DNA of 33,906 nt from Thermoproteota archaeon (GTDB taxonomy: Archaea > Thermoproteota > Methanomethylicia > Methanomethylicales > Methanomethylicaceae). Positions within the stretch are counted from its first letter, which is position 1, and every line of letters starts with the position of its first letter. This document shows positions 3,510 to 33,906 of this stretch, in pieces. The position numbers and the translations under genes were made by a program. Location: positions 1 to 33,906 of the forward strand of contig VGLU01000014.1 in assembly GCA_016882195.1 (NCBI GenBank). Reading direction: 5' to 3'. The notes under the pieces were generated by a model. The model made no database searches and had not been told where the DNA came from. It saw nothing but the letters and a program-made list of their open reading frames with translations.

Positions 3510-4372
<863 letters not shown>

Positions 4373-5522: not shown

Positions 5523-6203
5523 CTACCGCCGCATGTGCTCCGCAAAGTCCCTGAGTACCGCCTCGGGATCCTTAGCCTTGACGATTCCCGACGCCACCAA
5601 GATGCCCTCCGATCCAAGCCTCAGGGCTGCGGCAACGTCCTCCCCCTTGGTTATTCCGGCGCCGCAAAGCACCTTGATCTTGGGGTTTACCGCCCTTATC
5701 ATCCTCACCGAATCAGTAATGACCTCGGGCTTTGCCTTTGACACGGATATGCCGCTGCCTATCAGTTCGGGCGGCTCGACGGCGATCATCTCTGGGCTGA
5801 GCGCGGCGAGAGCCTTCCCGACCCGGGAGGTGTTGGCGCAGACGCAGGTAATGAGCTTGAGCGAGCCGCACCTTCCCACTATCTCCTCGATGACATCTGC
5901 CCTCAGCCGGCGTTCCGAGTGGTTGATTATCGATCCGCAGGCACCGGCCTCCACCACCGACTCCGGCGTGATGTGTCCCGTGTGAGAGCCGGGCATCTCA
6001 GGGTCCACGTGCTGAGCAAACACGGGGACGGACCTATTCTTTGCAATTAGAGGGATGTCAACGTGCTGAGGGGCTACGGCTATGCAGACCCCGTACTCCT
6101 TGCCCACCTTCTCCGCAGCTCTAGCCAGTGCAAGGGCCCTCTTGCCCTGCGACTCCTCATACGTCTTGAAGTTTATCAGTATCAAAGGGTATTTTATCTT
6201 CAA
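5523..6203 (-). CDS. tpiA: Triosephosphate isomerase
   Basis: Interconverts dihydroxyacetone phosphate and glyceraldehyde 3-phosphate in cytosolic gluconeogenesis/glycolysis. The 226-residue length is typical of the short archaeal TIM rather than the 250-residue bacterial form. The catalytic Lys is in NFKTYEES near the N-terminus, the catalytic His in NHSERR, and the catalytic Glu in [11 protein letters not shown]. The phosphate loop is [10 protein letters not shown]. The start is TTG at 6203, preceded by a GGTGAT-like binding site; no in-frame ATG is available nearby. A TATA-like ATTTTTAAATG lies near 6286-6296. A chimeric ORF at 3510-4043 duplicates its C-terminal half with a 116-base identical block. 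Gap 5403-5522 holds only the MNT promoter. Confidence 0.95.
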   Translation of the reverse strand: MKIKYPLILINFKTYEESQGKRALALARAAEKVGKEYGVCIAVAPQHVDIPLIAKNRSVPVFAQHVDPEMPGSHTGHITPESVVEAGACGSIINHSERRLRADVIEEIVGRCGSLKLITCVCANTSRVGKALAALSPEMIAVEPPELIGSGISVSKAKPEVITDSVRMIRAVNPKIKVLCGAGITKGEDVAAALRLGSEGILVASGIVKAKDPEAVLRDFAEHMRR

Positions 6204-9529: not shown

Positions 9530-9593
9530 TTTATATAAGACTTGTTTATAATTAACTAATATAAATCTTATAATAAGTAGGTTATGGAGGAGA
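9530..9593. promoter_or_regulatory. Divergent thiD-thiN / regulator promoter with inverted repeat
   Basis: A minus-strand TATA (9530-9538) serves thiD-thiN and a plus-strand TATAAAT (9560-9566) the regulator. An imperfect inverted repeat, ACTTGTTTATAA (9540-9551) and TTATAATAAGT (9568-9578), lies between and is a candidate operator. GGAGGAG at 9587-9593 is a strong ribosome binding site for the TTG start at 9598. Confidence 0.5.
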
Positions 9594-9597
9594 GTTT

Positions 9598-10569
9598 TTG
9601 AATCCACCCTGCGAGCTGACCGTTAGGGCACTACTGCCTGCCCTAAGAGTTCTGGTGGCGAAGGAGCTTGCAGAGAACCATTCTTGGACGCAGACGAGGA
9701 TAGCAAGGAAGCTCGGCGTCACGCAGGCTGCGGTGAGCGGCTACCTCTCTCAGGATGTCGCCACCGTCGCAACGCCCCCATTCAGCTTTGACGAGCTCAA
9801 GAGCATAGCAAAGGGTCTCACGCCGGAGATCGCGACAAAGAGGCTGACCCATGTAGACCTCATCAACAACATCTGTCAGATCTGCCTCAGCCTCAGAAGG
9901 GGAGGGGCGATATGCCATGTCCACAAGATCAAGGTTCCGGAGCTGGAGGAGGAGAGGTGCACCCTCTGCATGCAGCTCCATATGAGTCTGGCGGACATCT
10001 CAGACATCAGGCGGATAATCCTGGAAGATCTGCGGGCGGCGGTATCACTTCTTGAGAGTGCCCCAGAGTTCACAGAGCTCGTTCCAGAGGTCTTCACCAA
10101 CATTGTCATGGCAATAAAGGAGGCAAAGGGCATAGCGGACGTGGCGGGGATCCCCGGCAGGCTCGTGAGGATAAGGGGCAAGGTAAAGGCGCTCATGGAT
10201 CCTGAGTTCGGCGTATCCAGCCACCTCGCGAAGATTTTACTGGCGGTCATGAAGGCCAACCCGAACATAAGGTCGGCGATCAACCTGAAATACAACGACA
10301 GCGTGCTGAAGATAATTAAAAAGCTCAGCCTCAAGTACGCGGTTCTCCACAGGGACCCCAACTACAAGGGGAAGGAGGATCAGCTGATCGCGTTCGCCGA
10401 GGCCGCGGTCAGGAAGGGGGAGGGCTGGCTGGACATCATAATAGACGAGGGTGGCTTCGGAATCGAGCCCAACGCCTACTTCCTTGACGAGAGCGCGACG
10501 AAACTCGCGGACAGGGTCGTCAGGATCGCGAGGATGGTCAGCGTCTCGCTGAAGGAAGGCAAAAGTTAG
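9598..10569 (+). CDS. HTH-ThiN transcription regulator of thiamine metabolism (ThiR-like)
   Basis: A 323-residue regulator. Residues 1-55 carry a helix-turn-helix (TRIARKLGVTQAAVSGYLSQ). Residues 90-125 carry cysteines CQIC (93-96), C106 and CTLC (121-124), a possible metal site. Residues about 155-323 are a ThiN domain (GIPGRLVRIRGKVKA, FGVSSHLAKILL, IIDEGGFGIEP). Archaeal HTH-ThiN proteins (ThiR) are known to repress thiamine genes using the ThiN domain as ligand sensor. The position head-to-head with thiD-thiN supports that role. Start is TTG 9598, chosen because a GGAGGAG lies five bases upstream and the conserved PCEL begins right after. A single-domain relative lies at 15034-15393. Confidence 0.88.
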   Translation: MNPPCELTVRALLPALRVLVAKELAENHSWTQTRIARKLGVTQAAVSGYLSQDVATVATPPFSFDELKSIAKGLTPEIATKRLTHVDLINNICQICLSLRRGGAICHVHKIKVPELEEERCTLCMQLHMSLADISDIRRIILEDLRAAVSLLESAPEFTELVPEVFTNIVMAIKEAKGIADVAGIPGRLVRIRGKVKALMDPEFGVSSHLAKILLAVMKANPNIRSAINLKYNDSVLKIIKKLSLKYAVLHRDPNYKGKEDQLIAFAEAAVRKGEGWLDIIIDEGGFGIEPNAYFLDESATKLADRVVRIARMVSVSLKEGKS

Positions 10570-15033: not shown

Positions 15034-15393
15034 TCATAATGGCTTTCTGAGTTTTTCAAAATTGTCCCAGAATGCCTTTTGGGATTTTACCACGCTGCAG
15101 AGCCTGCAGAATGCCAAGATCATCTCGTCTGAGCCGCTCTTGCCGGCCAGCGACTTTGATACATCAGTTACGGTCTCTTTCACTCCCGGAATCTTCTCCA
15201 GCTCGCTCATCATCACTGCACCCCTTTTCGAGTTAATGTAGTGGCTCACCGCTGCTTGTGTGATGCCCAATTTTTCGGCAACCTCATTCTGGGAGAACGA
15301 GTAGGTCTCCAATAGCTCTTTGGCGACCAAGGCCCTGAATACAGGGAGGACGTATTTTGCGATAAGCTCGCAAGGGGACCTCATGCGCATCAC
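15034..15393 (-). CDS. HTH regulator related to the ThiR N-terminal domain
   Basis: A 119-residue DNA-binding protein. Residues 7-55 (PCELIAKYVLPVFRALVAKE, then VAEKLGITQAAVSHYINS) closely resemble the first 50 residues of the HTH-ThiN regulator at 9598. A short CRLC motif at 96-99 corresponds to the CQIC of that protein, but no ThiN sensor follows. It is divergent from atwA across a 150-base gap with TATA boxes and an inverted repeat, so it is a good candidate for controlling atwA, itself, or the wider methanogenesis cluster. The ligand is unknown; the Cys pair might bind metal with a partner subunit. Confidence 0.8.
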   Translation of the reverse strand: MMRMRSPCELIAKYVLPVFRALVAKELLETYSFSQNEVAEKLGITQAAVSHYINSKRGAVMMSELEKIPGVKETVTDVSKSLAGKSGSDEMILAFCRLCSVVKSQKAFWDNFEKLRKPL

Positions 15394-15486
15394 GCTGTTA
15401 TTATCTGAAGAGTATGAGAAGGACTATATAATTCTGATCTCAATGGTGTACAGCATTTAGTGCGGATTCTTTTGAGAAATTACATC

Positions 15487-15520
15487 GTTATTTTAACGGT
15501 GTTATTCAATTTATTTATAT
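15487..15520 (+). promoter_or_regulatory. atwA promoter with operator-like repeat
   Basis: CGTTATTTTAACG (15487-15499) is an inverted repeat immediately upstream of a TATA box TTTATATA (15513-15520), which would place transcription start near 15540-15545, just ahead of the atwA start. A repressor bound at the repeat would sit at the transcription-factor-B side of the promoter. Confidence 0.45.
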
Positions 15521-15559
15521 ACAACCGCATTAAAACTAATTTGTTCCTTGGTGACATTA

Positions 15560-17179
15560 ATGGGCAACCCATTCCTCATAATTGACAACGTCTCAAAGAA
15601 GTTCGGCAATAAAGAGGTCCTGAAGGACATCTCCCTTGAGATTGGTGAGGGAGACAGGCTCGGGATAATAGGTAGGAGCGGTTCGGGCAAGACGGTACTT
15701 CTCTCCATGCTTAAGGGGATGAGCGAATATGCCCCTACCAAGGGAAGGATAATTTATCGCGTCGCCTTCTGCAAGGAGTGCGAGCACATAGAGGGACCCA
15801 GTTGGACCGGGAAAGTTTGCCCCAGATGTTCCAGCAAGATGGAACTCGTGGAGGTGGATTATTGGAAGTTCGATGAGGTAGCAAAGACGCTGAAGAATAG
15901 GATCGCCATAATGTTCCAGAGAACCTTCGCCCTGTACGGCAGCCTTACAGTTTATGAAAACCTGGTGGAGTCCCTGACCAAGGCCCAGACATGTGAGGAG
16001 GACGTCAGCAAGAGGGCACTGGAGATCGCGAAGGAGATGGGTCTATCGCATAGGCTACTCCACGCGGCAAGGGACCTCAGCGGCGGGGAGAAGCAGAGGG
16101 TGGTCTTGGGGAGGCAGCTGGCTCTGAACCCAGTCCTTCTGCTGGCAGACGAGCCCACCGGAACGCTAGACCAGATAAGCGCCAACGCCATCTACAAGAT
16201 AATCAACCAAGAGGTGAAGGGGCACGGAACAACGCTCTTGGTTACGTCCCACATGCCGGAGGCCATCTCTGAGATGGCGGATAAGGCCGTCCTGCTGGAG
16301 GAGGGAAGGGCGGAGGCTGTGGGGGACTCCAAGAGTATTGTGAAGAGGTTCCTCTCCTACGTAAAGGCTGAGGAGGTCGCTGGACCAAAAGAGTTCGGTG
16401 GAGTGATATTAAGGGTCAAGGATCTCAAGAAGCACTACTTCTCCATTGACAAGGGGGTTGTCAAAGCGCTGGATGGAGTGTCCTTTGAGGTCAGAGAGAG
16501 GCAGATCTTCGGCATAATAGGGCTAAGCGGAGCTGGAAAGACGACCCTCTCCAGGATAATAAGCGGCGTGACGACACCCACCTCGGGGAGCGTGGATTTG
16601 AAGATGGGAGACGAGTGGGTGAATATGCTCGAGCCCGGTCCCTTGGGGAGGGGAAGGGCGACCCCCTACATAGGCATACTGCACCAGGAATACACGCTCT
16701 ACCCGCACTTGACAGTCATTGAGAACTTGACCGACGCGGTGGGTCTAGGGCTACCGGACGAGTTCGCCAGGTTCAAGGCGAACGTCGTTCTGTCCGCGAC
16801 CGGCTTCGAGGAAGGCGCCATAGACAGGATAATATCAACCTACCCAGATGAGCTGAGCGAGGGGGAGAGGCACCGGGTTGCCCTTGCGCAGGTTCTGATA
16901 AGGGAGCCCATCGTCGTTATTCTGGACGAGCCCTCCGGTACCATGGACCCGATAACCAGGCATGAGATATCAAGATCCATAAAGAACGCGAGGAACGAGC
17001 TGGGGCAGACCTTCATCATAGTGTCTCATGATCTGGACTTCGTTCTTGACACATGTGAGGAAGGGATTCTGCAGAGGGACGGACAAATCGTAGCCAGAGG
17101 AGCGCCCGGCGACATTATAAAAGCATTCACCCCCGAAGAGGAGAAGGGACTATCCGAGGCAAATAATAAGGCAGCCTGA
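15560..17179 (+). CDS. atwA: Methyl-coenzyme M reductase activation ATPase, component A2
   Basis: A tandem ABC ATPase of about 539 residues without membrane domains; component A2 supplies ATP hydrolysis for reductive activation of Mcr's F430 nickel. Domain 1 has Walker [10 protein letters not shown], then a family-specific zinc-ribbon-like insertion with CKEC and CPRC, signature LSGGEKQRV and Walker B LLADEPTG. Domain 2 has Walker [10 protein letters not shown], signature LSEGERHRV and Walker B VILDEPSG. The Cys insert separates AtwA from ordinary ABC proteins. I prefer ATG 15560 ([11 protein letters not shown]); TTG 15548 and GTG 15551 are in frame upstream. It converges with marker 2 with a one-base gap. 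Confidence 0.93.
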
Positions 17180-22319: not shown

Positions 22320-23654
22320 TTAGAACTCTCCCTTTATTTTTATAGCAGCTTCATTCACGTACTTTAGCGGTTCCCTTAGCTCTGGAACCTCGCTTAGGAC
22401 CTCACCAACTACTCCGCTCAGCTTCTCTGGCGTGTAGATTGTTGTGCCGGCGTCCAGCGCTACTGCTGCAGCGACGCATGGGATGCAGAAGCCCTTGCTG
22501 TGCCTTGTGACAATGTGGTTTCCGTTGAATACCGCGGGGTTGCCTCCACCGTATATGGAGTGGCTGAAGAAGGACATCTCTACACCGGTTCCTGCGACCC
22601 TACCCCAGTCGACCGCCGGTAGACCGGTCTCCCTCTCAAGCAGGTCGTTGAAGTATATGAACACCGATGGTGTGTGCTGCATGGCTCTTGCGGCACCGCA
22701 CGTGACCATTGTTCCGGCCATCAAGCCGGCCGCAGCGTAGGCGTTCCATTTGTTGAGGTCGTTTGTTGTGTAGATGGTGTAGCCAGATTTTGTCTTCTCA
22801 AGAGGCCTTATTACTCCATCTGCTATGGCTCTATTGACCGTGGACTTTACACAGTCCCCCAAATTCCCAGTCTTTGCATTCTCCTTGACAATGTCGTAGA
22901 CAACGTTATCGGCGTTTAGTCCTTGATAGGCCAATCCTAGCAGGTGGAATCTCTCGAAGTTGCCCATGGCATCACCCATCTCCCAGTGGGCTGTCTGTTC
23001 AAGTATCGATGAAAGGGCAGCGGCGTTCATGGAGTTCTTCCTTGTTATCATAGCTATGTGTGCAGCGAGTACGTTTCGCAGGGCGTATCCCATGCCCTCG
23101 TTCTGCTGCGGGACCGACAACAGGGACACAACGTTACCGCCCAGCATATCCATGGTCTGAGGATACCTGCCCCAAACCGCGGCGTGGACGAGGTCAGCAT
23201 CCCACATGTCGATGTTGAACTTGTCGATTACTACATGGCATAGTCCGGCTGCCACTGCGGTAGCAGAGGTTGTGTACTCGACGCCTGCGTTTAGTCTGGC
23301 GGCTGGAACTGTTACTAGAAGGTTCTTACCCTCCTTCAGAACCTTCACCTCTGTGTCGTCCTTTGGTTTCACCTGCAGGGTCTCTTTGAGGTCTCTTGCA
23401 ACAGCCTCAGCGTTGCCAACTAGATCCACCTTTGTGGATCTGCCCCTAAGCATGGACCACTTTCCACCGACCTCGCCGGTAGTAAGCGCAGTCTGGACGC
23501 CCTGTAGGTTCACAGCAACGCACTGTTTAACGTAGGCCACGATCTTCTGTATGGCTGGGTTGACTAGAGGACTCAGTGCTGCAACGGGTATATTGGATGC
23601 AACGAGTCGGCCATGATCGTCGTGTAGATCCACTACATCTTTATATTTTTTCAT
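22320..23654 (-). CDS. mcrB: Methyl-coenzyme M reductase beta subunit
   Basis: The 444-residue beta subunit, first gene of the operon. Typical segments are [20 protein letters not shown] at the N-terminus, [15 protein letters not shown], and the active-site stretch [19 protein letters not shown] with the Tyr that faces the substrate pocket, then [11 protein letters not shown]. The ATG at 23654 has a clear GAGGAG ribosome binding site about six bases upstream. Just before it is a palindrome CTCTATAGAG (23664-23673). The promoter lies in the 225-base gap to the XRE regulator. Confidence 0.97.
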
Positions 23655-23879
23655 AGGTCTCCTCTCTATAGAGTTGTTTCCGAACCTATTTGTGGGCGTT
23701 TGGTGTTAAAAAGCTTTTGTATTAAAAAGTAAATAATAAAACAGTGTTATTTTTACATAACTATTTCAAAAAAACCATAGGTAATTGTGGAGTCCTTACT
23801 CAGAGGTAGGTTTCGGCGTTCAGAAATAGTCTTTTCCAAGTGCCGAATGAATCCTAAGCGATCTTATCCATCAGCAACA
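23655..23879 (-). promoter_or_regulatory. mcr operon promoter and leader
   Basis: Read on the minus strand, T-rich sequence after the XRE stop may end the importer transcript (TTTTTTT near 23770). TATA-like A/T stretches (about 23706-23735) then precede a leader of roughly 40-50 bases with the palindrome CTCTATAGAG (23664-23673) and GAGGAG. An inverted repeat TTCGGC (23812-23817) and GCCGAA (23842-23847) further upstream could be a terminator stem or operator. No ORF is supported here. Confidence 0.5.
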
Positions 23880-33160: not shown

Positions 33161-33397
33161 GTGACATCCTCCCCTCAACGAATCGAGGGGCTTCCCGCTT
33201 CAGGGCTTCGGCTTGCTTGGTACGATCGGATGCCAAGTAGAGGTCTGGGCTCAGCGGGTGACGATCCCCCGTCCGGGGACGGGCAGCTTGAACTTAAGGA
33301 GAGGATGCCAAGCCTCTTAATCAGTTTGGCTGAGTTTTCATCACTTCGTAAATGGAGAGCACAAGTTTTCATACATTAAATTAGTGCGGTATTTAAA
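33161..33397 (-). mobile_element. Remnant 3' end of an older TnpB-type element
   Basis: The left boundary is a right-end-like motif: GTGACATCC (33161-33169) then a hairpin with arms CCCCTC (33171-33176) and GAGGGG (33185-33190) and GCTTCCCGCTTCAG. On the minus strand a short out-of-frame stretch reads LKREAPRFVEG, the usual kind of TnpB C-terminus. A further hairpin with arms CCCGTCC/GGACGGG lies near 33270-33285. Together they look like the 3' end of an older element into which, or beside which, the element with the complete-looking TnpB was inserted. It begins 15 bases after the signal peptidase stop. Confidence 0.5.
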
Positions 33398-33906
33398 GTG
33401 ACACGCTCCTACCCCTGAAGGGGTGTAGGCTTCCTGCTTCATGGTCAACCTTTCCTGCGTCAGGTTGACTCCACAGGCTTGACTTTCCGTATGCCCTACG
33501 GTAGCTCGGTTCAGTATATTTATTGAGGCGTTCAGGTCGCGGTCAATTGATAGGCCGCAGGGGCAGTTGTGAATCCTGTCCTTCAGGGTCTTCGGGACCG
33601 TGCGGCCGCAGCCCGAGCATTCCTGCGTCGTGCCCCCCGGCTCTACCTTCACTACCCGGCAACCGGCACTTTCAGCCTTGTTGCAAAGTTTCATTACGAA
33701 GGATGACCATCCGGCGTCGTGGATGGACCTGTTGAGGTGTTGGCACGGCCGTTCGATTAATTCCTTCAGCGACAGGTCTTCAACGGCTATCATCGAATAC
33801 TTGTGGGCGAGCCTGAAGGACAGTTTATGATGGAAGTCCCTGCGGGTGTTGGCAACTCTTTCGTGGGCTGCGGCGAGTATTTGTTTTGATTTGAACCAGT
33901 TCCTCA
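33341..33906 (-). CDS. tnpB: TnpB RNA-guided nuclease, IS200/IS605 type (partial)
   Basis: C-terminal about 188 residues of TnpB; the 5' part lies beyond the right edge (open frame to 33906, beginning RNWFKSKQILAAAHERVANT). The RuvC-II Glu is in MIAVEDLSL, zinc-finger cysteines are CSGCG and CPCG, and the RuvC-III Asp is in SIDRDLNASINIL. The visible catalytic residues are intact. The usual C-terminal MKQEAYTP coincides with the right-end hairpin. The frame runs about 18 residues past the GTGAC end at 33398 (KYRTNLMYENLCSPFTK), a read-through into flanking sequence. TnpB proteins cut DNA using an RNA from their own 3' end; no TnpA is visible. Confidence 0.88.
   Translation of the reverse strand, partial: RNWFKSKQILAAAHERVANTRRDFHHKLSFRLAHKYSMIAVEDLSLKELIERPCQHLNRSIHDAGWSSFVMKLCNKAESAGCRVVKVEPGGTTQECSGCGRTVPKTLKDRIHNCPCGLSIDRDLNASINILNRATVGHTESQACGVNLTQERLTMKQEAYTPSGVGACHFKYRTNLMYENLCSPFTK
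33398..33441 (-). repeat. Right-end motif of the TnpB element
   Basis: GTGAC at 33398-33402, then hairpin ACCCC-TGAA-GGGGT (33411-33424) and GGCTTCCTGCTTCA. This is the same arrangement as at 33161 and, more loosely, at 4068. In the minus orientation it ends the element and overlaps the 3' end of tnpB, the region expected to give the guide-RNA scaffold. Confidence 0.55.

Follow-up and report, generated by a model that had tools for sequence, protein, structure and literature searches.

A predicted operator of the archaeal HTH-CxxC regulator family at sulfur, Fe-S and methyl-CoM reductase genes in a Methanomethylicia lineage

To our knowledge, little is known of how methanogens tune methyl-CoM reductase (Mcr) and its activation to the supply of cofactors. 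The locus described here raises the question of whether a small regulator could take part. The window, that is the whole 33,906-nt stretch of DNA analysed (contig VGLU01000014.1 of a Methanomethylicaceae archaeon), carries a gene that we call reg and, across a 166-nt gap, atwA (Table 1). An initial annotation proposed a regulator of Mcr activation, pointing to an inverted repeat, CGTTA-N3-TAACG, at the atwA promoter. We compared the window genome (G000; 1.45 Mb, 41 contigs, 97% complete) with its relatives in a same-family set, f1, of 22 genomes (G000-G021), in 20 of which atwA was found. The genome nearest to G000 is G003, from a sister genus.

Table 1. Coordinates of the features discussed within the window
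Feature	Position	Strand	Basis
Operator at thiR/thiDN promoter, ATAAG-TAG-GTTAT; probably ThiR's own site	9573..9585	(+)	
ThiR-type HTH-ThiN protein, reg paralogue	9598..10569	(+)	PF10120 (ThiN); separate clade
reg, stand-alone HTH-CxxC regulator gene	15034..15384	(-)	116 aa from ATG 15384
Predicted auto-operator in reg leader, ATAAC-AGC-GTGAT (1 mismatch)	15389..15401	(-)	Operator scan
TATA-like box of reg, ACTATATAATTC	15423..15433	(-)	TATA assignment inferred from sequence
Predicted atwA operator 1, ATTAC-ATC-GTTAT (1 mismatch)	15479..15491	(+)	Comparison with G003
Palindrome CGTTATTTTAACG (operator 1 right arm plus operator 2 left arm)	15486..15498	(+)	
Predicted atwA operator 2, TTAAC-GGT-GTTAT (1 mismatch)	15493..15505	(+)	
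atwA core promoter, ATTCAATTTATTTATATACAAC	15504..15525	(+)	
atwA, methyl-CoM reductase component A2	15560..17179	(+)	TIGR03269
mcrB, first gene of mcrBGA	22320..23654	(-)	tblastn synteny with relatives
Predicted mcrB operator, ATAAC-ACT-GTTTT, at -96	23738..23750	(-)	

The reg gene, its family and its placement

The open reading frame annotated at 15034-15393 on the reverse strand is a real gene for an HTH-CxxC protein. A GTG start at 15393 is possible; the ATG at 15384 is the likelier start because relatives open with M[KR]xPCE. The properties ascribed to the product were borne out: 28 of its first 55 residues are identical to those of the HTH-ThiN protein encoded nearby, a CxxC is kept (as FCRLC), Pfam gives HTH_3 (PF01381, E 1.4e-6, over the gathering score) with ThiN (PF10120) not found, and the gene is divergent from atwA. 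Pfam returned neither an Rrf2 match at E 0.001 nor an ArsR family match. We take the family to be COG2522. The profile match of atwA (726.7 bits against a cut-off of 517) and a TIGR03256 check of mcrA secured the Mcr-related assignments.

The description of reg as a relative of ThiR holds at the level of the family and no further. In a tree of 90 family proteins, reg and its orthologues grouped apart from ThiR (SH-aLRT 90 for the reg clade, 97 for f1 ThiR), which rules out reg being a recent broken copy of thiR. Three cysteines, C5, C93 and C96, were invariant in 26/26 aligned family members; judged from the alignment, they are likely to be the sensor, possibly holding an Fe-S cluster, zinc or a persulfide. 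The AlphaFold model is confident (pLDDT 85.5) and all-helical; Foldseek returned nothing for it at E ≤0.001, and a search of solved structures by reg sequence found nothing at E 0.01 or better. Further structural comparison gave a best Z of 5.9 (5.0 for a DeoR DNA-binding domain), and because these matches are weak we assign reg no function from its fold.

Where contigs allow, the order thiDN-thiR-drg-mmp15-ycaO-tfuA-atwA-mmp2-...-mcrAGB is kept across f1. Judged by the refuting condition set in the initial annotation, the divergent reg/atwA pair is not a general part of it: only 2 of the 20 genomes with atwA, G000 and G003, have reg between tfuA and atwA, and tfuA directly adjoins atwA in the other 18. 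Orthologues of reg elsewhere in f1 are 46-54% identical. Seven of them (G001, G007, G012, G018, G020, G021, G008) sit at the proteasome locus beside a metallo-beta-lactamase gene, a locus without reg in G000 and G003, and the copy in G019 is at a contig end. The two placements form sister clades in the tree and outgroups have reg at neither, so relocation is possible in either direction.

Several side observations were made in these regions. Conserved repeated GCGTTATATTT-like blocks occupy the divergent metallo-beta-lactamase/HTH183 promoter beside the proteasome genes (L061, L063, L066, L060, L179, L180). The window also holds a shortened second triosephosphate-isomerase-like frame (3510-4043), the C-terminal part of which repeats tpiA (5523-6203), and, at the contig end, the C-terminal part of a TnpB/Cas12f-like transposon protein (33341-33904; PF07282).

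An operator of the HTH-CxxC family

The inverted repeat reported at the atwA promoter, CGTTATTTTAACG, is exact where it was placed, but it is within chance and off register. Perfect 5-3-5 palindromes arose in 24% of dinucleotide-shuffled copies of the reg/atwA gap (P ~0.24), and 5-n-5 palindromes of any kind (n 0-8) in 83%. Genome-wide, CGTTANNNTAACG with ≤1 mismatch gave 29 matches per strand against 26 in the control, which is no excess, and CGTTA-N3-TAACG was rejected as an operator, the window having 11 matches against 6.8 expected (≤2 mismatches) and thus no clear excess. Its conservation also failed, as G003 keeps CGTTATGATAAAG and has lost the right arm. The sequence conserved in register with G003 is ATTACnnCGTTATnnTAAnG (15479-15498, 15/20 identical, shuffle P 0.0002), a block of 20 nt that begins 7 nt further upstream than the palindrome and contains operator 1. 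The palindrome is the junction of two tandem operator copies at atwA.

The operator emerged from a count of perfect palindromes in the regions preceding stand-alone HTH-CxxC genes of many archaea, with atwA not consulted. Across 80 such genes ATAAC-N3-GTTAT was exact in 8 (shuffle mean 0.02) and present with ≤1 mismatch in 22 (shuffle mean 0.95, maximum 5). Because the motif had been discovered in part of this test set, the count was redone on the 63 genes outside f1: it was exact in 8 of them (-80..+12), the next of all 1024 half-sites reached 3, and the ATAAC half-site with any other spacer between 0 and 8 nt was found in none. ThiR-like genes had it exactly in 2/29 cases and with ≤1 mismatch in 8/29, against 0.29 when shuffled. 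We found no published description of this operator in a non-exhaustive literature search.

At 82 loci around family members (1.16 Mb) there were 22 exact operators against a mean of 2.0, the next highest among 160 comparable half-sites being 7. They stand before cysK, in tandem (L108), before a cysteine desulfurase gene and at thiI, inside the annotated 5' end (L145), and before a dsrE-like gene (L243); operators also precede HTH genes, and several others lie inside ORFs. Gene neighbourhoods were scanned in random samples of 150 of the 189 near genes and 150 of the 217 far genes of stand-alone members. Aminotran_5 was found in 8/150 near genes and at most 1/150 far genes; only Aminotran_5, PALP and ThiI leaned near, NifU_N being equal (3 and 3). 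Across the wider HTH-CxxC family, the association is with genes for sulfur and Fe-S metabolism rather than with thiamine alone.

Two other candidate motifs were set aside. ATTAC-N3-GTWAT as a general motif showed no clear excess and had mixed targets (by eye, an arsenite exporter, a cas10-like and a surface protein), and ATTACNNCGTTATNNTAA with up to 3 mismatches showed no excess over control. Separately, ATTAC-N3-GTAAT/GTTAT was seen between divergent genes at G001:C2:46893 and G012:C5:5671 (ACR3-type arsenite exporter- and NADPH-FMN reductase-like by eye).

Operator sites in the window genome and its family

With ≤1 mismatch, G000 has sites in the reg leader and ahead of mcrB, tusA-dsrE-iscS-iscU, nifB and atwA (two copies at atwA); the sister genus shares them all but for the second copy at atwA. 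The reg-leader operator keeps its -17 position in G003 (ATAAC-GGC-GTGAT), and its GTGAT arm may double as a Shine-Dalgarno sequence. Operator 1 of atwA has the same spacing there (ATTAC-GAC-GTTAT), while operator 2 was found in the window genome only, with just the left arm recognisable in G003. The atwA core promoter ATTCAATTTATTTATATACAAC is identical in G003, and genus g3 has a related block without an adjoining reg. The mcrB operator is likewise at -96 in G003 (ATAAC-ACC-GTTTT), a site that weighs less because the whole mcrB promoter is broadly conserved between the two genomes.

Among 26 orthologous upstream pairs from G000 and G003, the site was common to 7, in 4 separate intergenic regions (thiR/thiDN, reg, atwA, mcrB, tusA/tatD), and each of the other 159 comparable half-sites was common to at most 2. 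Six of the 31 G000 sites fall within the window, which is 2.3% of the genome (P ~1e-4); the one at 1372, inside a coding region, is probably accidental. About 17 of the 31 are intergenic by our ORF rule and the rest lie inside ORFs. A genome-wide excess of sites with ≤1 mismatch was absent, with 31 places against 34 in the control for G000 and 33 against 66 for G003. Further sites common to both genomes precede nifB (exact in G000, one mismatch in G003) and lysX; sites in one genome only precede mtaA in G000 and mtaB in G003. Sites also precede corrinoid-protein genes, possibly not orthologous, in both. The mtaA, mtaB and corrinoid sites, at genes of methyl-reducing methanogenesis, are at G000:C3:45746, G000:C1:201784, G003:C14:32920 and G003:C2:37278. 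One operator-bearing stretch both ends G000:C19 (22790) and begins G000:C31 (98), before a Thi4-type thiazole synthase gene, and this repetition is probably an assembly break.

Across f1, sites at sulfur and Fe-S genes are widespread. The tusA-dsrE-iscS-iscU promoter has an exact site in 6 of the 8 genomes with tusA (G003, G004, G008, G009, G014, G017) and a one-mismatch site in G000, so that in 7/8 the arms are conserved and the spacers differ; G013 had no site within the 52 nt examined at tusA, and in G015 tusA was not found. At nifB the site is exact in 7/11 genomes (G000, G001, G018, G021, G004, G009, G014), again with conserved arms and varying spacers, and no site was found at the nifB promoter of G002, G013, G006 or G010. 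G002 and G013 carry other stand-alone paralogues yet lack the nifB site, which we count against the reading preferred below. In genus g5 the isc and nifB sites are present, the reg clade is absent and another stand-alone paralogue occurs; more than one family member therefore probably reads the operator. As a side observation, the IscU-like (NifU_N) gene of G000 (L179, G000:C3, 11455-13017, reverse strand) is split by an insertion in which Pfam finds LAGLIDADG domains, apparently an intein, and the G003 copy has 143 aa and no insert.

The Mcr-related sites are much narrower in distribution. Sites with ≤1 mismatch were found at atwA in 2/20 f1 genomes with data and at mcrB in 2/16, in each case G000 and G003, and in none of the other 18 and 14, respectively. 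Five genomes of genus g2 have a two-mismatch atwA site in the form ATTAC-N3-GTAAT or GTCAT; the reg promoters of g2 and of G008 lack a site with ≤1 mismatch, and G008, which has reg, has no site at atwA. What was computed from the genomes is the operator itself, where it lies, how it is conserved and that it co-occurs with the relocated gene. At atwA and mcrB this co-occurrence comes from just one clade, of two genomes, and is possibly a single evolutionary event.

This distribution bears on an alternative that we judge unlikely, namely that ThiR, encoded 5.5 kb from reg, or another HTH-CxxC paralogue binds the atwA and mcrB sites and ties Mcr to thiamine status, the location of reg being incidental. 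ThiR and reg have the recognition helix TQAAVS in common, and a near-identical operator stands at ThiR's own promoter. Against this, a ThiR-type match is present in 22/22 f1 genomes (the copy in G007 running into a contig end), whereas G000 and G003 alone have the atwA and mcrB sites (≤1 mismatch), which therefore track the relocated reg rather than ThiR; moreover, nothing obvious links the reg-leader and tusA-isc sites to thiamine.

Rather unlikely, too, is that reg entered the tfuA/atwA gap by chance and controls only itself and sulfur genes, the matches at atwA and mcrB being decayed or accidental. The absence of a genome-wide excess, the confinement of the pair to two genera and the chance-level palindrome all fit such a neutral relocation; the conservation of the atwA site in register between diverged flanks (P 0.0002) and the mcrB site at the same position in both genomes, with no other half-site class behaving alike, speak against it. 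A purely local circuit, in which reg regulates atwA and itself in response to redox through its CxxC and has no wider regulon, is very improbable: it would suit a divergent pair with operators on both sides, but tusA-isc and nifB keep the same operator, which also occurs near sulfur genes of other archaea.

Predicted regulon and related systems

Since the operator is found at atwA, mcrB and reg in exactly G000 and G003, the best reading is a regulator, specific to this lineage, of both Mcr and its activation. We consider it probable, from the sequence evidence above, that reg is a sulfur/Fe-S responsive regulator whose regulon took in atwA and mcrBGA in this lineage. As a member of the HTH-CxxC family, with the N-terminal module of ThiR and no ThiN, reg would bind ATAAC-N3-GTTAT as a dimer. 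Family members would control their own gene and the sulfur/Fe-S genes tusA-dsrE-iscS-iscU and nifB, with cysK, a cysteine desulfurase gene, thiI and dsrE as predicted targets in other archaea; in the window lineage and the sister genus, with reg between tfuA and atwA, the regulon would have been extended to atwA and mcrBGA. We infer reg as the binder, its dimeric state, the signal sensed and the sign of regulation. Repression is suggested at reg, tusA and nifB, where the operator is close to the start and overlaps or neighbours the TATA box; activation is suggested at atwA and mcrB, where it precedes the core promoter.

The proposal of a regulator of Mcr activation is thus supported, through different evidence and a different operator from those first put forward. 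The finding outlasts its original reason: the register was wrong and the pair is narrowly conserved, but the operator is real and the predicted regulon coherent.

Several known regulators invite comparison. ThiR, the archaeal thiamine regulator, is an HTH-CxxC module fused to ThiN; reg resembles it in its N-terminal HTH-CxxC module and in a near-identical operator close to the gene start, and differs in lacking ThiN, in having only the first CxxC, in its separate clade and in its predicted sites at isc, nifB, atwA and mcrB. IscR is a bacterial Fe-S regulator of the Rrf2 family. If our reading is right, both are cysteine-bearing HTH proteins tied to their own gene and to iscS-iscU; IscR holds its Fe-S cluster through three cysteines, and for reg the observation is three invariant cysteines. 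By contrast, reg belongs to another HTH family and has no Rrf2 domain by Pfam. SurR, an ArsR family protein with a CxxC, mediates the sulfur response in Thermococcales and recognises GTTn3AAC. It is likewise a small archaeal HTH protein with a CxxC and a link to sulfur, but reg is HTH_3 rather than ArsR by Pfam, and the SurR motif differs from the operator described here. MsvR, a redox regulator of methanogens (PMC3729527), is, as predicted for reg, a cysteine-dependent methanogen regulator.

More tentatively, and with somewhat less than even confidence, we propose an archaeal IscR-like system of independent origin, in which cysteine-bearing HTH-CxxC proteins with the operator ATAAC-N3-GTTAT govern sulfur mobilisation and the NifB step and, in one Methanomethylicia lineage, also directly Mcr and its activator. 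According to one report, MCR activation uses nitrogenase-like Fe-S clusters, and the Fe-S clusters of the activation complex are described there as the probable product of NifB (PMC12176620). Control of isc, nifB, atwA and mcr by one regulator would span linked steps, and one short operator common to isc, nifB, atwA and mcrBGA would couple cofactor supply to enzyme synthesis. If true, that Methanomethylicia lineage would link synthesis of its methane enzyme to the supply of Fe-S clusters (L-cluster). Both the family and the operator extend well beyond methanogens, which offers a candidate regulator for many uncharacterised archaeal genes.
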